DNA from: Spirochaetota bacterium
GTDB lineage: Bacteria > Spirochaetota > Spirochaetia > Treponematales > UBA12059
Direction of reading: 5' to 3'
Length of the DNA stretch: 42,364 nt
NCBI GenBank assembly: GCA_029548805.1
Contig: JAKPMS010000177.1
Location: forward strand, 1 to 42,364
Below the pieces are notes generated by a model, which saw nothing but the letters and a program-made list of their open reading frames with translations, did no database searches and was not told the DNA's origin. Shown here one piece after another: positions 10,435 through 23,593 of this stretch. Every line of letters starts with the position of its first letter. The stretch's first letter is position 1. Both the position numbers and the translations under genes were made by a program.

Positions 10435-11010
10435 ATGAAAAGTATTAAGGGTACTCAAACCGAAAAAAATTTGATGGCGGCATTTTCTGGCGAATCCCAG
10501 GCAAGAAACCGCTATACCTATTATGCAAGCAAGGCCCGGGACGAAGGCTATATGCAAATTTCAGCCATTTTTGAAGAAACTGCCAACCAGGAAAAGGAAC
10601 ATGCCAAAAGGCTTTTCAAGTTTATGGAAGGCGGAGAAATAAGCATATCCGGCACTTATCCAGCTGGCCCGGCAGGAACTACAAGCCAGAACCTGTATGA
10701 AGCGGCTCACGGCGAAAACTACGAGTGGCAGACCATGTATCCTGATTTTGCCAAAACAGCCAGGGCAGAAGGTTTTGAAGCCATTGCCTGCGTCTTTGAA
10801 GCCATTGCCGTTGCAGAAAAGCAGCATGCAAAGCGCTACGAAAAACTTAAAGCCAACGTAGACAACGGCAAGGTGTTCAAATCCGAAAAAACCGCTGTAT
10901 GGCAGTGCCGCAACTGCGGTTATATTGTAGAAGCTGCAGAAGCACCAAAGATGTGCGCTGCCTGTGCCCACGCACAATCGTATTTTGAACTGATTTCCGA
11001 GAATTGGTAA
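10435..11010 (+). CDS. rbr: Rubrerythrin
   Basis: [60 protein letters not shown] plus C-terminal rubredoxin-like CRNCGY...CAAC; AAGGAG ribosome-binding site. Confidence 0.96.
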
Positions 11011-11036
11011 AAACTACTATAATAGGGGGGTCTGTT

Positions 11037-11414
11037 ATGGAATTGTTGCAAGTTTACAAGTGTTCCAAGTGCGGCAACATTGTAGAATTGGTTCATGTTG
11101 GTGGAGGACAGCTGGTTTGCTGTGGAGAGCCCATGAAGCTCCTTACAGAAAATACCAGTGACGGCGCCAAAGAAAAACATGTTCCTGTTATTGAAAAGGT
11201 TCCCGGAGGATGGAGGGTAACAGTTGGCGCTGTAGTTCATCCCATGGAAGAAAAACACTATATTGAATGGATTGAGCTTATTGCCGATGGCAAGGTATAC
11301 CGCAGCCATCTGAAACCCGGAGACAAACCCGAAGCTACTTTCATGGTGGAAGCCACCAAGCTTGTAGCTAGGGAATATTGCAACCTGCACGGCTTATGGA
11401 AGGCCGAGGTATAG
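11037..11414 (+). CDS. dfx: Desulfoferrodoxin / superoxide reductase
   Basis: [36 protein letters not shown] desulforedoxin domain, [26 protein letters not shown] and CNLHGLWK metal-binding motifs. Confidence 0.96.
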
Positions 11415-13858: not shown

Positions 13859-15289
13859 ATGGCGGCAAAAAAGGAAAAAACCGTTTTTGAGTGCACAAGC
13901 TGCTCGCACAGAGAAGCAAAATGGCTGGGACGTTGTCCTTCATGCGGAGAATGGAACAGCCTTAAAGAAGTGGCTGTCCATCCGGGCATGGACAGCCCGC
14001 GAGGCTTTGGCAGCCATGGCAGATTTTCTGTTCCTCTGGATGCCATAAACCCGGAAGAAGGGGCCCGCTTTTCTTCCGGGCTGGCAGAAGTGGACAGGGT
14101 GCTTGGCGGCGGTATCATGAAAGGCTCCAGTGTGCTCATTGGCGGAGAACCCGGTATTGGCAAAAGCACCCTGCTTCTGGAAATAGCGGCCAAAGCCGAA
14201 ACTGGCGGACGGGTTTTGTACATATCCGGAGAAGAAAGTGCCGCACAATTAAGGCTCAGGGCGGACAGGCTGGGGCTTAAGCGCAAAAATATGGAGGTGT
14301 TGTGCACCGGCAGCCTGTCAGAAGCCATCATGGCTTTGGACAGGGTCAAACCCGGCTTGTTTGTTGTGGACTCGCTGCAGACCCTGAGGGCAGCCGACGC
14401 AGGCGCCGTTCCCGGTACCAGCAATCAGGTCAAATACTGCGCACTAGAACTGGCCGACTGGGCACGCGAGCACGGATCAGCCAGCTTTCTTGTGGCACAT
14501 GTTACAAAGGACGGCCTTATAGCCGGCCCAAAAGCTGCAGAACATACAGTGGACGTGGTGCTTCTTTTTGAGCAGAGCGACAGCGATGTAAGATTTTTGC
14601 GCTCCGTAAAAAACCGTTTTGGCTCTACCGACGAACTTGGGCTTTTTACCATGACAGAAAGCGGTTTAAAGGAGCTGAACGACCCATCGGGAATTTTCCT
14701 GGAGTTCAGGGAAGCGGGGCCTCCCCCCGGCACAGCTGTGGCTGCTAGCTGGGAAGGCAGCAGGGCCTTTTTGGTGGAAATTCAGGCTTTGACTGTGCCC
14801 GGCAAGGCCAGTCTGTCAAGAATATACTCCGAACGGATAGAGCCGGCCAGGGTGGCGCGTATAGCCGCAGTTCTGGAAAAGCACGCAAAGCTGGGTTTTT
14901 CCGACCAGGACATTTATGTTAATGTTAGCGGAGGCATTAGGCTGGTGGAGCCGGGGGTGGACCTGGCATTGGCTGCTGCCCTGTATTCCGCCCGTACCGG
15001 AATGCCTTTGCCAAAGGCTTGCGCCCTTTTTGGAGAGCTTACCCTGGCCGGCGAACTAAGGCCGGTCAGACGCATGCCGGGCAGGGCAAGGGCAGCCAGG
15101 GCCATGGGGCTAAACAGGGTGATAGGCCCTGCAGACAAGGGGGCCGAGCCGGGGCAGCGGGGCAGCCATGCCAACAAGCAAGCAAGCGAAGCGGGCCATG
15201 GTGGCGCCAATACTTCAGCCCTGCCCGAGGACGGCTGGGAAGAAAAGCTGGACCTTGCATCAGCTGTCACTTCCCTTTTTTTACGCTAA
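13859..15289 (+). CDS. radA: DNA repair protein RadA/Sms
   Basis: Zinc finger CTSCSHREAKWLGRCPSC, Walker A GGEPGIGKST, KNRFGSTDELGLF motif, Lon-like C-terminal domain. Confidence 0.96.
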   Translation: MAAKKEKTVFECTSCSHREAKWLGRCPSCGEWNSLKEVAVHPGMDSPRGFGSHGRFSVPLDAINPEEGARFSSGLAEVDRVLGGGIMKGSSVLIGGEPGIGKSTLLLEIAAKAETGGRVLYISGEESAAQLRLRADRLGLKRKNMEVLCTGSLSEAIMALDRVKPGLFVVDSLQTLRAADAGAVPGTSNQVKYCALELADWAREHGSASFLVAHVTKDGLIAGPKAAEHTVDVVLLFEQSDSDVRFLRSVKNRFGSTDELGLFTMTESGLKELNDPSGIFLEFREAGPPPGTAVAASWEGSRAFLVEIQALTVPGKASLSRIYSERIEPARVARIAAVLEKHAKLGFSDQDIYVNVSGGIRLVEPGVDLALAAALYSARTGMPLPKACALFGELTLAGELRPVRRMPGRARAARAMGLNRVIGPADKGAEPGQRGSHANKQASEAGHGGANTSALPEDGWEEKLDLASAVTSLFLR

Positions 15290-15311
15290 CAACCATTTGT
15301 GGAGCAATAAC

Positions 15312-17279
15312 ATGAAATACGAGTCCGGAACAAAAAGACTTTTTGGAATAGCTGTTCCCCTGTCTGCGCTGAATACGGAAAACTCCTGGAGGCTTGGAGA
15401 ATATCCGGACCTTGCGGCTTTTGCCGGGCTGGCCAAAAAGCTGGGAGCCGGAATTATACAGCTTCTGCCCCTTAATGATACCGGCAGCCAGTCTTCGCCT
15501 TATTCCGCACTGTCAGCCTTTGCGCTGCATCCATTGTACATCAGGGCTTCCGATTTGCCCGAGGCTGCTGCCTGCCCCAAGGCCGTTGCGGAATTGTCTG
15601 CCTTTGCAGCCAAAGCAAAAAAGGGCGAGCGCTTTCCGTACGAAGCCGCTTTAAAAAACAAGCTAGAAGCGTTAAGAGAAATTTATGACACATCTGAAAA
15701 GGGCATACTGCATGATGCGGAACTTAAGCGCTTTATTCAAAAAAAGCCGTGGATAAAAAGCTATGCCGTTTACAAACAGCTGAAGGCAGCCAATTCCGAA
15801 AAATCATGGAAGGACTGGCCCTTGTACAGAAACCCATCCATGTCCGATCTGGCTGCATTGTGGCAGGATTCATCCCGGCATAAGGAGCTGATGTTTTATG
15901 CATGGCTTCAGTACCGTGCAGCAGAACAGTTTTCTCTGGTTGCAGAAGCTGTGCACAAAATGGGCATTGAGCTTTTGGGCGACCTGCCCATTTTGATGAA
16001 CGAAGACTCTGCTGATGTATGGGCCGACAGGCAAAACTTTGACACAAGCATGAAAGCAGGCGCGCCGCCGGACATGTATTCGGATGCGGGACAAAACTGG
16101 GGCTTTCCGCTTTACAATTGGGCCGCCATGAAGGAGTCCGGGCACAGCTTCTGGAAAGCGCGAATTGCGGAGGCTGCCAACTACTATTCGGCATACAGGA
16201 TAGACCATGTTTTGGGCTTTTTCAGGATTTGGGCTCTGGAAGAAAAGGAGGAGTCCGGCAGGCTTGGCCGCTATATTCCGGGTTTGCTGATAAAAAAAGA
16301 AGAGCTGTTAAAACTTGGTTTTTCTGATGAGCGCATAACATGGCTGTCGGAACCCCATATTTATGGCTTTGAGCTTAGGGAAAAGCTTGCCCATCCGGAG
16401 CATATTGAAGAGCTTGCACTAAAGCGGATGGAAAATGAGGATTTGTATCTTTTCAATGCGGAAATACGCGGAGAAGCCGATATTTCTGCCCTGGCTTTGC
16501 AAGCGGATGCCAAGGACTTTCTTAAAAATTGCTGGCATAACCGGGCTTTCCTCAAAGTAAAAGAAAATGATGACGCGTCTTTCTATACTCCTGTTTGGAC
16601 CATGGAGCAAAGCAGGTCGTGGAACAGCCTGTCAGCAGAAGAGAAGGGCAGCATTCGGCAGCTACTGGACAGCAAATTGCAGCCGGTGGAAAAAACCTGG
16701 GAGGAACAGGGCACGGAACTTTTGTCCATGCTAAAAGAAGCTTCGGACATGCTGCCATGCGCGGAAGATTTGGGCGCAGTACCGGATTGTGTTCCCGTGG
16801 TGCTTGAAAAACTGGGCATACCGGGCTTGAGGATTCCAAGATGGATGCGCCACTGGAAGAAAGCTGGCCAGCCTTTTGTGGATCTGGCCGAATATGACGA
16901 ATTATCCGTTTGTACGCCAAGCGTTCACGATACCTCAACCCTCAGGGCATGGTGGGACAAGGAAGAAGGCAAGGAAGAATTTGTAAAAATTCTGGCTGCA
17001 GATTTTGCTTCCATCCCGCAAAAGCTGGATACGGAAACGCAAGAAATTGTTTTAAAGGCTTTGGCCGGCTGCAAGTCCAGGCTGTTTGTAGTGCAGCTTC
17101 AGGATATTCTGGATCTTGACGATATTTATAGAACTGTCAATCCGGAAGCTGACAGGATAAATGTGCCCGGTACTCTCAATGACTTTAATTGGACCTGGAA
17201 GATGCCAATTGGAATTAACAGCTTGTTTATGGATGAAGCATGGTGCAAACTGGTTTCTGGTATAGCCGCTAGAGAGTGA
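15312..17279 (+). CDS. malQ: 4-alpha-glucanotransferase (amylomaltase)
   Basis: GH77 features: LGAGIIQLLPLNDTGSQSSPYSALSAFALHPLYI, YRIDHVLGFFRIWALE, AEDLGAVPDCVPVVLEKLGIPGLRIPRW, PSVHDTSTLRAWW. Start reset to Met at 15312. Confidence 0.94.
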   Translation: MKYESGTKRLFGIAVPLSALNTENSWRLGEYPDLAAFAGLAKKLGAGIIQLLPLNDTGSQSSPYSALSAFALHPLYIRASDLPEAAACPKAVAELSAFAAKAKKGERFPYEAALKNKLEALREIYDTSEKGILHDAELKRFIQKKPWIKSYAVYKQLKAANSEKSWKDWPLYRNPSMSDLAALWQDSSRHKELMFYAWLQYRAAEQFSLVAEAVHKMGIELLGDLPILMNEDSADVWADRQNFDTSMKAGAPPDMYSDAGQNWGFPLYNWAAMKESGHSFWKARIAEAANYYSAYRIDHVLGFFRIWALEEKEESGRLGRYIPGLLIKKEELLKLGFSDERITWLSEPHIYGFELREKLAHPEHIEELALKRMENEDLYLFNAEIRGEADISALALQADAKDFLKNCWHNRAFLKVKENDDASFYTPVWTMEQSRSWNSLSAEEKGSIRQLLDSKLQPVEKTWEEQGTELLSMLKEASDMLPCAEDLGAVPDCVPVVLEKLGIPGLRIPRWMRHWKKAGQPFVDLAEYDELSVCTPSVHDTSTLRAWWDKEEGKEEFVKILAADFASIPQKLDTETQEIVLKALAGCKSRLFVVQLQDILDLDDIYRTVNPEADRINVPGTLNDFNWTWKMPIGINSLFMDEAWCKLVSGIAARE

Positions 17280-17342: not shown

Positions 17343-19586
17343 ATGGAAGAAAGCAGCCTGGAGCATACAGAAAGCAATATGTATTACAAGCAGCGTTACG
17401 AGGAGCTTGTACATGCCTTGCCGGATATTGTATACGAATTGAATCCTGATGGCGTAATCACATTTATAAGCGAATCGGTTTTTTTGATAGGCTATACTCC
17501 GGATGAGCTTGTAGGAAAGCATTTTTCGGTAATGCTGGATGAAGATGATGCCGCAATTGTGGACAGGGACAAGGTTCTGCAAGAGTATGCCGGCCTTAAA
17601 ACGGGAGACGGAATAAGTCCGAAGCTGTTTAACGAACGGCGGGGTATTGCCAGGCGGACCTGGGACCTTGAAGTAAAAATCAAAAGGAAACCCGGAAAAA
17701 GATACAATACAGAAGAGTTTATAGGTTCTGTTACAGCCTACGGGGAAATATCCGCAGCTGGCTCTTACAGCAGGGACGAAAAAAGAATTTTCCGGGGAAC
17801 TGTCGGTATTATAAGGGATGTAACACTAAAGCGAAAATCAGAAGAAATGCTCAGAAAACTGTACCAGGCGGTTGACCAAATTCCTGTGGGAGTTTTCATT
17901 CTTGATCACGGATTGCTTGTAAACTATGTAAACCCCGCGTTTTTTCTTTATAGCGGTTTTTCGCCCGCTGATATCATTGGCAAAGACCTGTTTGCCTTGC
18001 TGGACATTCCTGATAAAAAGTCCTCCGTAATGAAATCCATGCTATATGCCGGCTTTGACAGTCATGAGCTTATTAACATAAACACAAAGTCAGGAACCCG
18101 GCTGTGGATGGATTTTTCCCTGTATCCTGTACGCAGCCTTTCGAGTGTCATTACCCATGCCATAGTTGTTGCGGACAACATAAATTCCAGAATAGTCATG
18201 GAAGAGGCTTTGGACAAGGCCAATGCGGATAGACTGAAGGCGGAACAGGAAAAGGCCTGTTTTTTGGACAGTATCAGCAGGGATTTAAAAACACCGTTAT
18301 TAAATATTATTAACTCTGCCAGCTTGCTGCAAACAGACAGGGCCGACAAAATTGCAGATGACATAAACAGCAATGCCAATGCATTGATGGATGTGTTTAA
18401 GGGTATGCTGGATTATATCATAGCAGAAAACCGGCCTGGCGGAATAACTGAACCGGAATTTTCTTTTGCCAGTTTTATGAAAGAAGCATGCGGCCCTTAT
18501 ACACGGGCTGCGGAAAAAAAGGGCATGGCCTTTAATCCGGGTGCATTTCCTGATGTAGAACTTAAGACTGAGCCGGAACGCCTAAGGCGCATTCTGGAAA
18601 TAGTGCTGGACGAAGCTTTCAGGCTGGCTGACGGCAATTCCGTCCAGCTTGTATCGTTTTTGAAAAAACAGAACGGAAAAACGGCCGGTTTGGAAATAAA
18701 AGTAAGCGCATTGTTCGGATACAATGCCCTGGAAGACAAATTGGCAAATGCTGGACTGTCTTTGGCCAAACGTATTCTGGAAAGCAGGGGCGGGAGTTTG
18801 AAGCTGGATGACAGCGTGATGGACGAAAAAGCTATTGTCATTACACTTCCTCCGGATATGATTTCCGGCAGCAAGGATGAGCACTTTTACGAAACTGATA
18901 CAGAAAAGGAAGTATGTGAAAGATACAGCCTGCTTCTTGTGGATGACAATGAAGTATACCTTGAATACATCCGAACCCTTTTGGAGAACCTGGGTTATCA
19001 GGTTTATAGCGCCATTGGTGCGGCTGAAGCCCTAAAATTGCTGGAAACACATATAATTGATGTTGCTCTCCTTGACCTTCTTATGCCCGGCTATTCCGGC
19101 TTGGAGCTTGCAAAAGTGATGCGCAGCTACCATGGCATAAAATATTCTCCAAAAATGCCAATTTTTGCGCTAAGCGCCATGGAAAACCTTAAAAACCTTG
19201 ATGGCGGCGTTTTTGACGAGGTGTTTGACAAGCCTTTTGACATAAACAAGTTGTCCGGAACCATTTTATCCTATATGGAAAAGCTGGAGAGTCAGGCAAT
19301 AGCCTCCATAAGCAATATGGCCGGCGGAAATTCGGAGCTTATCGCCAAAACCAGACTGGAAGCCCAAACATCTTTGTCAGTTTTGGAAATAGCTTTAAAA
19401 AGCTCCAACATTATAAGAATCGATATTAAAAATGAAGCCATCAGATTAAAAAAGCTCTTGGTTTTGTTTGCAAACCATTATATGACAAATTTGGCAAGCA
19501 TGTTTATTGAGCATTATTCCATTGACAACAGAAAGATGCTGTTGAACATTTTGGCCAGATTGAACATGATACTTGCTAAATTTTAA
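17343..19586 (+). CDS. PAS-PAS-degenerate histidine kinase-receiver hybrid protein
   Basis: Two PAS domains (LPDIVYELNPDGVITFIS; IPVGVFILDHGLLVNYVNPAF), H-box-like SISRDLKTPL, receiver LLLVDDNEVYL...ALLDLLMPGYSG...FDKPFD. Confidence 0.88.
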   Translation: MEESSLEHTESNMYYKQRYEELVHALPDIVYELNPDGVITFISESVFLIGYTPDELVGKHFSVMLDEDDAAIVDRDKVLQEYAGLKTGDGISPKLFNERRGIARRTWDLEVKIKRKPGKRYNTEEFIGSVTAYGEISAAGSYSRDEKRIFRGTVGIIRDVTLKRKSEEMLRKLYQAVDQIPVGVFILDHGLLVNYVNPAFFLYSGFSPADIIGKDLFALLDIPDKKSSVMKSMLYAGFDSHELININTKSGTRLWMDFSLYPVRSLSSVITHAIVVADNINSRIVMEEALDKANADRLKAEQEKACFLDSISRDLKTPLLNIINSASLLQTDRADKIADDINSNANALMDVFKGMLDYIIAENRPGGITEPEFSFASFMKEACGPYTRAAEKKGMAFNPGAFPDVELKTEPERLRRILEIVLDEAFRLADGNSVQLVSFLKKQNGKTAGLEIKVSALFGYNALEDKLANAGLSLAKRILESRGGSLKLDDSVMDEKAIVITLPPDMISGSKDEHFYETDTEKEVCERYSLLLVDDNEVYLEYIRTLLENLGYQVYSAIGAAEALKLLETHIIDVALLDLLMPGYSGLELAKVMRSYHGIKYSPKMPIFALSAMENLKNLDGGVFDEVFDKPFDINKLSGTILSYMEKLESQAIASISNMAGGNSELIAKTRLEAQTSLSVLEIALKSSNIIRIDIKNEAIRLKKLLVLFANHYMTNLASMFIEHYSIDNRKMLLNILARLNMILAKF

Positions 19587-19671
19587 AAAATTCATTGCTT
19601 GCCCATTTATACGAGATTATAATCATGTTTTACAGTTAAAACCCGAAAGGGTTGGAGTCAGGAGTAAAAAG

Positions 19672-20619
19672 GTGTTTCAGAAACAAGTTATGATGCGCCG
19701 GGTGCTGTATGCGCTTGTGCCAATTATATTGTTGGCACTTTGGCAGTACGGATTAAGATTTTTATTGATCCTGCTTACAAGCCTTGTGGTGGGTGTTTTA
19801 ACAGAATATTTGTTCAAAAAGAAAAAAGGCGGCAAGGTAAGCGAGGCTGTACTGGTCAGTTCGGTTCTTTTTGCACTGTCCATGCCGCCGGCAGCTCCTC
19901 TTTGGATAGTAGCCATTGGTATTGCTTTTGGCGTGTTCATGGCCAAGGAGGTATATGGCGGCTTTGGGCGAAATGTTTTCAATCCTGCCATAGCCGGGCG
20001 GCTGTTTGTATACATTTCCTTTGCAGGCGTGCTTGGAGCTTCCTTTTTTGTTCCTGGCGGCTTTGGCAGGAATGCCGGCAGCGCTTTTGGCGCTCTGGAC
20101 GGCATGTCCACGGCCACACCCCTGGCTTTAATGCGGGGCGGCCATAGACTGCCGTTGCTTGACTATATAAGCGGCATGCGGCCGGGTTCGTCCGGAGAAT
20201 CGGGCACAGTTCTGATACTGGCTGCCGCTGTTTATCTTGTGGCCACCAAAACAGCCCAGTGGCGCCTTGTTGTATCCACAGTACTTGGCGGCGCGGTTTT
20301 ATCCATGGTTTTGTGGTTCTCCGGAATTAAGCAGGCTCTGCCGCCGGAAGCCATGCTGGCCGGAAGCTTCCTGTTTGTTGCGGTTTTTATGTCTACAGAT
20401 CCGGTTACTGCGCCCAAAAAGCCGGCAGCACAATGGGCTTATGGCATTCTTATAGGCATAACAATAGTCATAATCAGAAGCTTCAGCCTGTTTCCCGAAG
20501 GGACCAGTTTTGCAATACTCCTTGGCAACAGCTTTGCCAGCCTTTTTGACAGAACGGTTGCATCGCGGCAGGCTGCAAAAAAGTCAGGCACAGATAGCGC
20601 AAAGGAGGTACAGAAATGA
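19672..20619 (+). CDS. nqrB: Na+-translocating NADH:quinone reductase subunit B / RnfD family
   Basis: FGRNVFNPAIAGR, DGMSTATPLAL (FMN-threonyl site), multiple TM helices, FMSTDPVTAP. Start could be GTG 19672 or ATG 19690. Confidence 0.88.
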   Translation: MFQKQVMMRRVLYALVPIILLALWQYGLRFLLILLTSLVVGVLTEYLFKKKKGGKVSEAVLVSSVLFALSMPPAAPLWIVAIGIAFGVFMAKEVYGGFGRNVFNPAIAGRLFVYISFAGVLGASFFVPGGFGRNAGSAFGALDGMSTATPLALMRGGHRLPLLDYISGMRPGSSGESGTVLILAAAVYLVATKTAQWRLVVSTVLGGAVLSMVLWFSGIKQALPPEAMLAGSFLFVAVFMSTDPVTAPKKPAAQWAYGILIGITIVIIRSFSLFPEGTSFAILLGNSFASLFDRTVASRQAAKKSGTDSAKEVQK

Positions 20620-21230
20620 AAAAGGATTCCATAGCCTATGTGGTTGTATTCACTTTTGTTATCTGTGCCGTCTTTGTAGGAGTTCTGGCCATAGCCAACG
20701 AAAGCACAAAAGCGGCTGCATCGGCCAACAAGGAGTTTGCATTGCAGTCTGCGGTGCTTGGGGCTTTTGGAATAAGCTATACCGACAAGGCCGATGCCTC
20801 AAGCAAGTATAAAAGTTCGGTAAACGAAACAGTCTCCGCCGGAGGCAGGGCATGGAAGGCCAGGCTGGACAATCAGGATTACAGCGCTGTGGAGGCTGCC
20901 GGCCCGGGCTTGTGGGGCACTATTACAGTAATTCTGGCAGCCAGCCCTGACGGAGAAAGGGTAAGGGGCATACGGCTTGTTTCCCAGAATGAAACCCCCG
21001 GCCTTGGCGGCCGTATAGAAGAAACATGGTTCCTTGGCCAGTACGAAGGAGAAAAGTCTGCAGCCGGCAAAATTGCCATGAAGGCAGGTGCCGAATCCAG
21101 CGGCAAGGCAGACCCGGACAAGGAAAACAGCCGGGTAGAGGGCATTTCCGGCGCAACAAGAACCAGCCAGGCCTTTGGTGATCTTGTGGAAAGCGCTCTA
21201 GCCAAAATTAAAGCGATGGGGGGCAAATAA
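20616..21230 (+). CDS. nqrC: Na+-translocating NADH:quinone reductase subunit C / RnfG family
   Basis: N-terminal TM helix, GLGGRIEETWFLGQY, EGISGATRTSQAF covalent-FMN motif. Confidence 0.9.
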   Translation: MKKDSIAYVVVFTFVICAVFVGVLAIANESTKAAASANKEFALQSAVLGAFGISYTDKADASSKYKSSVNETVSAGGRAWKARLDNQDYSAVEAAGPGLWGTITVILAASPDGERVRGIRLVSQNETPGLGGRIEETWFLGQYEGEKSAAGKIAMKAGAESSGKADPDKENSRVEGISGATRTSQAFGDLVESALAKIKAMGGK

Positions 21231-21871
21231 TGGCCAAAAGCAAGACAGCCGCCATACTTAAAGACAATCTGTGGACCAATAACCCTATCTTTATACAGAT
21301 ATTGGGAATTTGTTCCACCCTGGCTGTTACAAACAACCTTGTAAACACGCTTATAATGACTGTGGGTGTATCCCTTACAACCGCTTTTTCCAGCTTTACC
21401 CTTGCAGGCATACAAAAGCTTATCCCCCGCAAGGTAAGGATGATAGTGCAGGTTGTGGTAATATCCTTCTATGTAATACTAATAGACATAATTTTGCGGG
21501 CATATTTTCCGGATGCATCCAAACAGTTGGGTCCATATGTGGGCCTTATAATTACCAACTGCATTATCATGGGCAGGGCGGAGGCATTTGCCCAGGCCAA
21601 TCCTCCGGGGCTGTCCTTCTGGGACGGTCTTACCAGCGGCCTTGGGTATATGGCAGTGTTGTTGGCCATAGCCTTTGTACGCGAACTTTTGGGCTTTGGC
21701 AGCCTGTTTGGCATAAAAGTTCTTCCGGAAAGCTTTGTTCCTTGGACCATAATGATTATGGCGCCAAGCGCTTTCTTCCTTGTAGCCATGGTCATGTGGT
21801 GGGCCAAATCCGTTCAGGCAGGCAAGGCCCAGCCCAAGGCTTCTTCCAAACCCCAGGAGGCAAAAAAATGA
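21230..21871 (+). CDS. nqrD: Na+-translocating NADH:quinone reductase subunit D / RnfE family
   Basis: LWTNNPIFIQILGICSTLAVTNNLVNTLIM, LIITNCIIMGRAEAFAQANPPGLSFWDG. Confidence 0.92.
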   Translation: MAKSKTAAILKDNLWTNNPIFIQILGICSTLAVTNNLVNTLIMTVGVSLTTAFSSFTLAGIQKLIPRKVRMIVQVVVISFYVILIDIILRAYFPDASKQLGPYVGLIITNCIIMGRAEAFAQANPPGLSFWDGLTSGLGYMAVLLAIAFVRELLGFGSLFGIKVLPESFVPWTIMIMAPSAFFLVAMVMWWAKSVQAGKAQPKASSKPQEAKK

Positions 21872-22461
21872 TGCCGCTAGTAAATCCGTTTACCCTGTTT
21901 TTTGCATCCATTTTTACCAGCAACATACTTCTTTCCAACTTTCTTGGCATGTGCTCCTTTATATCCATATCCAAAGACTGGAAAAGCTCCTTTGGACTTG
22001 GAATGGCAGTTACTGTGGTAATGACAGTAACAACGCTGTTAAGCTGGCTGGTGCTTCATTACATAATAATGCCTCTTGGCCTGGATTATTTGTCATTTAT
22101 TGTATTTATTGTTGTAATAGCGGCTGTAGTACAGATACTGGAAATGATAATTGACCGGGCAAGCCCTGCCCTTTACATGAGCCTTGGCATATTTCTGCCG
22201 CTTATAACCGTAAACTGCGCCATTTTGGGTGCAATACTGTTTATGCAGATAAGAAATTACGGGCTGATGCAGTCTGTAGCCTTTGGCGCCGGTTCAGGTC
22301 TGGGCTGGTGGCTGGCCATAATGCTTCTTGCGGCAATCAGGGAAAGAATAGACAAAAACCCCGTGCCTGCCGGCCTTAAAGGTCCGGGCATCACCATGAT
22401 AACCATAGGCTTTATGGCCATGGCTTTTATCGGCTTTTCCGGCATGATAGCGGTACAGTAA
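21868..22461 (+). CDS. nqrE: Na+-translocating NADH:quinone reductase subunit E / RnfA family
   Basis: NPFTLFFASIFTSNILLSNFLGMCSFISISKDWKSSFGLG, LPLITVNCAILGAILF; ATGA overlap with nqrD. Confidence 0.92.
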   Translation: MMPLVNPFTLFFASIFTSNILLSNFLGMCSFISISKDWKSSFGLGMAVTVVMTVTTLLSWLVLHYIIMPLGLDYLSFIVFIVVIAAVVQILEMIIDRASPALYMSLGIFLPLITVNCAILGAILFMQIRNYGLMQSVAFGAGSGLGWWLAIMLLAAIRERIDKNPVPAGLKGPGITMITIGFMAMAFIGFSGMIAVQ

Positions 22462-22471
22462 GGAGGCACAG

Positions 22472-23593
22472 GTGAATCCGGTAGTTTTGGGACCTCTTGT
22501 AGTATCCGGTATATCAGCAATTCTGGCTTTTGTAATAGCAGTGGTGGACAAGTTTGTAAATGATTACGGAGAAGTGTCCATCGACATAAATCACGGAAAG
22601 AAAAGCCTTAAGGTAAGGGGCGGCTCCATGCTTTTGGGCACTCTTGCCGGCGAAAATATTTTTGTACCATCAGCTTGCGGCGGCAGGGGCTCCTGCGGAG
22701 CGTGCAAGGTAAGGGTGCTTTCAGACGTGGGGCCAATGCTGCCCACAGAAACGCCCTACATGAACCAGGAAGAAATAGCCAACAATGTGCGACTTTCATG
22801 CCAGATCAAGCTTAAAAAAGACATAGCCATAGAGCTGTCAGAAGAGATTTTCAGCGTAAAAAAATACAAAAGCAAAGTGATAAGCCACAAGGACCTCACT
22901 TATGACATAAAAGAAACCGTATTCAAACTGGATGGCGCTGATAAAATTGAGTTTAAGAGCGGCCAATATGTACAGATTGTTGTTCCTCCCTATGGCGAAA
23001 TAAAAGAGAGCGTGCAGCGGGCTTATTCCATGTCCAGCAAGCCGGGAGACCAGGACAGGGTAGAGCTGTTGACCCGACTAGTACCGGGCGGCATAGCCAC
23101 CACCTACATGCACAAGTTTATGAAGGAAGGGGACACGGTGGAGCTTGTTGGCCCATTTGGCGATTTCCATGTGCATGACACTCCTGCTACCATGGTATGC
23201 GTGGCTGGCGGTTCGGGAATGGCTCCTTTCAAAAGCATGTTCTGGGACCTGTTTACAACAGGCTCCTTCCCGGAAAAAGAAATATGGTACTTTTTTGGGG
23301 CAAGAACAACAAGAGACATGTTTTATCTTGATGAGCTTAGGGAACTCGAGAAAAAATGGCCCCGCTTCCATTTTGTGCCCGCGCTTTCCGAGCCAAAGGC
23401 GGAAGAAAACTGGCAGGGCGAAAGCGGCCTTATTACTGTAGTGCTCGAGCGCTTTATTAAAGAAAAAATTGCCAAAGACAAGGGACTTGAGGGTTATTTG
23501 TGCGGAAGCCCGGGCATGATAGACGCGTGCATTGCTGTAATGACCCACAATGGTATATCGGAGTCGGACATTTACTATGACAAATTTGCCTGA
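22472..23593 (+). CDS. nqrF: Na+-translocating NADH:quinone reductase subunit F
   Basis: N-terminal TM helix, 2Fe-2S motif SACGGRGSCGACKVRV...LSCQIKL, FAD/NAD-binding RAYSMSSKPGD and CVAGGSGMAPFKSMF, C-terminal CGSPGMIDACI. Confidence 0.95.
   Translation: MNPVVLGPLVVSGISAILAFVIAVVDKFVNDYGEVSIDINHGKKSLKVRGGSMLLGTLAGENIFVPSACGGRGSCGACKVRVLSDVGPMLPTETPYMNQEEIANNVRLSCQIKLKKDIAIELSEEIFSVKKYKSKVISHKDLTYDIKETVFKLDGADKIEFKSGQYVQIVVPPYGEIKESVQRAYSMSSKPGDQDRVELLTRLVPGGIATTYMHKFMKEGDTVELVGPFGDFHVHDTPATMVCVAGGSGMAPFKSMFWDLFTTGSFPEKEIWYFFGARTTRDMFYLDELRELEKKWPRFHFVPALSEPKAEENWQGESGLITVVLERFIKEKIAKDKGLEGYLCGSPGMIDACIAVMTHNGISESDIYYDKFA

Follow-up and report, generated by a model that had tools for sequence, protein, structure and literature searches.

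A probable lineage-specific pseudo-histidine kinase in a spirochaete genome: predicted loss of kinase function with retention of the receiver

What remains of a hybrid histidine kinase once its kinase core has decayed is the question raised by a gene of a Treponematales spirochaete (Spirochaetota bacterium, UBA12059; GCA_029548805.1). The window, which here means the whole stretch of 42,364 nucleotides that was analysed, is one contig (JAKPMS010000177.1) of a 2.39 Mb genome that is 94.6% complete. The gene occupies positions 17343..19586 of the forward strand as an unbroken open reading frame, with a GAGG preceding the ATG at 17343 and a stop at 19586, and the encoded pseudo-hybrid-histidine kinase of 747 amino acids has the layout PAS-PAS-HisKA-(HATPase)-REC-helical tail. 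Two PAS domains are matched by Pfam. PAS1 (residues 14-171; 17382..17855, +) is the best conserved module of the protein and is followed by PAS2 (residues 172-285; 17856..18197, +).

The kinase core is made up of eroded HisKA/DHp helices (residues 286-362; 18198..18428, +) and an eroded HATPase-like region (residues 363-505; 18429..18857, +). The H-box of the protein reads DSISRDLKTPL, and the phospho-acceptor His is replaced by Arg313 (codon AGG, 18279..18281, +), just as an earlier sequence-only reading of the gene had reported. AGG differs from the His codons CAC and CAT at all three positions, and a sequencing error was ruled out by these three base changes together with the loss of several other motifs in a frame that is open. 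The same reading had found the N-box without its Asn and no G1 box, and both observations hold, with Glu424 at the Asn position of VLDEAFRLADG and SALFGYN where DTGxG is expected. The F-box and ATP lid are shortened by a deletion of some 20 residues relative to orthologs. There is no His at all within residues 286-505, which rules out a substitute acceptor in the core; a nearby replacement His beside an intact ATP-binding domain, the finding named in advance as fatal to a non-catalytic interpretation, is thus not what the protein contains. Comparison with the domain families, which had also been proposed, gives a HisKA score of 25.1 bits, under the curated cut-off of 26.9 bits, and no match to HATPase_c (PF02518) up to E = 10. 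Intact orthologs score 77-98 bits against HATPase_c, and a partly eroded ortholog described below scores 31 bits. From these motifs it is near certain that kinase activity has been lost.

The receiver domain (residues 528-650; 18924..19292, +) presents a different picture. The Pfam match to Response_reg is clear at 58.1 bits, and the acidic pair Asp534/Asp535, the predicted phospho-acceptor Asp578 (codon GAC, 19074..19076, +), Ser611 and Lys630 are all kept. The earlier claim of an intact receiver is upheld at this level, and retention of a phosphorylatable domain is supported by its active-site residues. The receiver is followed by a helical C-terminal tail (residues 651-747; 19293..19583, +), a feature absent from the earlier reading. 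The tail forms a helical bundle in the structural model and could be a degenerate HPt domain; no match to Hpt (PF01627) was obtained for the tail of this protein or for those of seven orthologs, and no HPt-like His motif was seen in the tail sequence here. AlphaFold2 models built with 13 sequences reached only moderate confidence (mean pLDDT 69 and 68, pTM ~0.36). In these the eroded core can still be made out, with two long helices and an alpha/beta domain (block pLDDT ~48-84), and within the limits of a moderate-confidence model it matches solved sensor kinases including DivL (4q20) with a target TM-score of 0.58-0.65 and HK853 with a TM-score of ~0.45-0.53.

Orthologs were recognised by sequence and by shared upstream gene order. 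Of seven further genus members searched, six have one, as do many genomes elsewhere in the family and order. Those relatives that bear names come from metagenome assemblies of spirochaetes, HGW-Spirochaetae-3 and SZUA-370 among them, and the nearest relative is only ~45% identical. It had been proposed that conservation of the Arg in relatives be checked, and it is not conserved: in an alignment of 38 sequences, this gene included, the H-box His is kept in 35, and Arg occurs in this gene alone, the other two exceptions being G004 (Gln) and G039 (Ser). Within the genome itself the remaining 11 HisKA domains all have the His, leaving this gene the sole exception of 12. Since 35 of the 38 orthologs keep the His, the family is one of ordinary hybrid kinases of which this gene is an eroded ortholog, and most simply the intact form would be ancestral and the loss of the His specific to this lineage. 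Intact orthologs, for example those of Spirochaetae bacterium HGW-Spirochaetae-3 (L101) and Spirochaetes bacterium SZUA-370 (L099), share with this gene PAS1, PAS2, the receiver, the tail and the radA-malQ upstream neighbours, but they still carry the THELx, DNAxxYT and DTGxG boxes and, at the N-terminus, a domain that resembles a receiver, and they are followed by a stand-alone receiver gene, all of which are lacking here.

The ortholog of G004 (L012, G004:C27:3731-5941) belongs to the same genus. It has Gln in TQELREP, an N-box reading IEDAVRTT, a G1 region reading GVGQGAEGG and a shortened lid, and its receiver keeps 25 of 25 conserved residues. By its motifs this is a second, independent kinase loss, milder and partial, with a predicted intact receiver. 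The distant ortholog of G039 (L037, G039:C32:53555-55513), where the alignment places Ser at the His position, has lost its N-terminal domain as well as key residues of the receiver, while the ATP-site boxes are partly kept.

The distribution of change along the protein is uneven. Residues conserved in the family are kept here at 53 of 58 positions in PAS1, 14 of 18 in PAS2, 13 of 18 in HisKA, 10 of 26 in HATPase and 22 of 25 in the receiver (PAS1 plus receiver against HATPase, Fisher p = 2.7e-7). When the tree topology was fixed from PAS1, PAS2 and the receiver, the terminal branch of this gene took up 18.0% of tree length in the kinase core, 11.9% in PAS2, 6.9% in the tail, 6.4% in the receiver and 5.2% in PAS1; the corresponding values for the branch of G004 were 5.1% for the core and 0.9-1.6% for the other parts. 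The excess distance of PAS1 and the receiver to genus mates, over that between the mates, is about that of malQ and radA. PAS1 and the receiver therefore follow the genome baseline as defined by these two neighbours, and it is exceeded by the core and in part by PAS2; on the alignment erosion is mainly in the kinase core. The excess in the kinase part, shared partly by PAS2, which also diverged faster than in relatives, joins the missing His, N-box, G1 box and lid in bearing out the proposal of a non-catalytic kinase. In the tree the gene falls outside the clade of its genus (85% support), possibly as an effect of its long branch. At 0.05 substitutions per site a simulation of neutral change left the frame free of stops with a probability of 0.035, and at 0.1 with one of 0.0025. 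The divergence of the core is far above the level beyond which a neutral frame would be unlikely to stay open, and selection has therefore held the frame after the core was released, for much of that time. The open frame thus argues against an old pseudogene, though not against a recent one.

Two further losses had escaped the earlier reading. Orthologs carry ~140 additional N-terminal residues, the first part of which is receiver-like (beta-alpha repeats) in a model of an intact ortholog, and this domain is missing from the protein. In most family members examined, G004 included, a stand-alone receiver gene lies directly downstream of the ortholog; such CheY-like loci follow the hybrid kinase at L083 (5917-6417), L084 (10158-10583), L089 (12907-13281) and others. 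Here that gene is missing, and a search of this genome for a relocated cognate copy found none, the best match being the receiver of another hybrid kinase. The genome is small by comparison with other genus members (2.39 Mb against 2.6-3.9 Mb), GC content is 48% in the window and 43% in the gene against ~62-67% in homologous regions of genus mates, and its proteins are more diverged; within its genus it gives the impression of a genome that has diverged and been reduced. The hybrid kinase system is dispensable, because the gene is absent from near-complete genomes belonging to two of the family's genera.

Hybrid kinases without the acceptor His but with a retained receiver are known from a few other bacteria, and the present one would descend from an intact ancestor, its loss being specific to the lineage. 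CCNA_03265 (CC_3162) of Caulobacter crescentus lacks the conserved His and keeps the receiver Asp, as here, and its authors proposed trans-phosphorylation or heterodimerisation (PMC11481889). The likeness is one of description, and CCNA_03265 has a nearby candidate acceptor His (H151), whereas the core described here has no His and has lost the ATP site too. DivL, also of C. crescentus, is a pseudo-histidine kinase that has several PAS domains, lacks autokinase activity and, as here, has its acceptor residue replaced (PMC4211667). Its substitution is a Tyr conserved in nearly all DivL orthologs, and it senses phosphorylated DivK, whereas the Arg found here is lineage-specific and a receiver is attached. 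RcsD of enterobacteria is likewise hybrid-type, lacks the kinase-domain His and is linked to a partner kinase (PMC3762810). It keeps a working HPt, whereas the present protein keeps a receiver and has a tail without a recognisable HPt His. Autophosphorylation of RcsD, long called His-less, was reported in one study in which the responsible residues were not identified (PMC3762810), and caution is therefore needed over calling kinases dead from sequence alone.

Phosphorylation of the receiver in trans, or a scaffold role, is a reasonable inference from these features, and we regard it as on balance probable that the protein is a pseudo-histidine kinase whose Asp578, provided that it is still in use, takes its phosphate from another protein, making it a sensor-coupled receiver and not a kinase. 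The ancestor would have been a hybrid kinase (receiver-like domain, PAS, PAS, HisKA, HATPase, REC, helical tail) widespread in this spirochaete order, from which autokinase function was lost in this lineage while PAS1, the receiver and the unbroken frame were retained. The PAS domains may still sense, the DHp helices may still dimerise the protein, and Asp578 would take phosphate from, or drain the phosphate of, another kinase or an HPt protein. That such an arrangement can work is shown by a published experiment with a kinase-dead GacS(H294A) chimera, which was served in trans through its transplanted receiver (PMC8175716). Counted against this reading are the missing cognate receiver, which looks like the dismantling of a pathway, the acceleration of PAS2 and the dispensability of the gene. 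The same facts lend themselves to the possible, though distinctly less probable, explanation that the gene is a decaying remnant of a pathway being lost in a reduced and diverged genome, its frame not yet broken. The kinase core, the N-terminal domain and the stand-alone receiver have gone together, the genome is smaller than those of its genus mates and other family members have no copy, all of which would fit decay; the intact 747-codon frame, in the face of so much divergence in the core, and the conservation of PAS1 and receiver near the genome baseline would not.

It is rather improbable that function resides in the eroded DHp/HATPase core itself, which would then bind a response regulator or another kinase in the manner of DivL or RetS, with the receiver secondary. 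DivL does work without kinase activity (PMC4211667), and the DHp helices are still predicted here in a core whose model resembles DivL, but this structural match comes from the moderate-confidence model, the core is the fastest-changing part relative to orthologs, and the cognate receiver gene is gone. A role as phosphatase only is very unlikely. The residues that follow the lost His, Asp-Leu-Lys-Thr (314-317), conform to E/DxxT/N, the motif of HisKA phosphatases, and might strip phosphate from a response regulator; many HisKA-type phosphatases, however, use the nucleotide site, which is not intact here, the cognate regulator is missing, and G004, the parallel case, no longer has the motif (QELRE). 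The notion of a kinase kept active by a displaced His can, as far as sequence allows, practically be dismissed: displacement was suggested for the Caulobacter protein of the same type (PMC11481889), and here it found no support in a core with neither His nor N-box, G1 box or lid.

Candidate phosphate donors for Asp578 in the genome are the 11 other HisKA proteins, an HPt domain on a hybrid at C73 and a HisKA_2-like kinase on C116. At L002 (G000:C116, ~200-1740) a 513-codon frame encodes a HisKA_2-like/HATPase kinase with an N-terminal extension and the same type of PAS1; it lies near a thioredoxin reductase-like gene, and relatives of its PAS domain occur in many of the genomes searched.

Few pseudo-histidine kinases have been tested, and a single genus with intact, half-eroded (G004) and fully eroded orthologs offers a natural series in which to ask what a hybrid kinase does after its kinase is gone and whether its receiver can be coupled to a different donor. 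We offer it tentatively, as something short of probable, that conversion of this hybrid kinase into a phosphate acceptor under sensor control has happened repeatedly in this spirochaete group. The core would have been released from selection with PAS1 and receiver still constrained, and the former kinase would now serve as a sink or adaptor that is gated by a signal and supplied by a second kinase. If this were true in two lineages of one genus, conversion from kinase to receiver would be a repeatable evolutionary route.

The surroundings of the gene are partly conserved. The upstream order of a VWA gene, radA (a label assigned from AAA/Lon-like domains), malQ (4-alpha-glucanotransferase; 15168..17279, +) and the kinase is common to the genus and part of the family. 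On the downstream side an nqrB-like gene (19672..20619, +) follows, and the gap of ~85 bp given earlier between the kinase stop and the GTG at 19672 is indeed 85 bp. The link to nqr that this had implied does not survive comparison. The relatives have the gene behind radA-malQ and in no instance beside nqr-like genes: of those queried in frame, none lies near the ortholog in 18 regions of relatives, where the B gene was queried out of frame, and the NQR2 genes of the genus are located away from it. The 85-bp gap is therefore a local arrangement, the adjacency being peculiar to this genome among those examined, and a functional link with nqr was rejected as unsupported. A promoter scan, whether for a shared or a separate nqr promoter, gave nothing above chance, and a TATAAT whose -35 is poor (19595-19623) was not counted as promoter evidence. 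Between this TATAAT and the ribosome-binding region of the nqrB-like gene lies a small perfect hairpin, AACCC-GAAA-GGGTT (19640-19653). The Nqr-like cluster itself (19672-23593) contains B, C, D, E and F-type genes with no nqrA recognised beside it; its B and C genes are short and score 221 bits against an NCBIfam cut-off of 414 for nqrB and 77 against 144 for nqrC. There are three NQR2-type loci in the genome. Elsewhere in the window (10435-11414) a rubrerythrin and a desulfoferrodoxin gene, an oxygen-defence pair, lie adjacent to each other, as they also do in two relatives.
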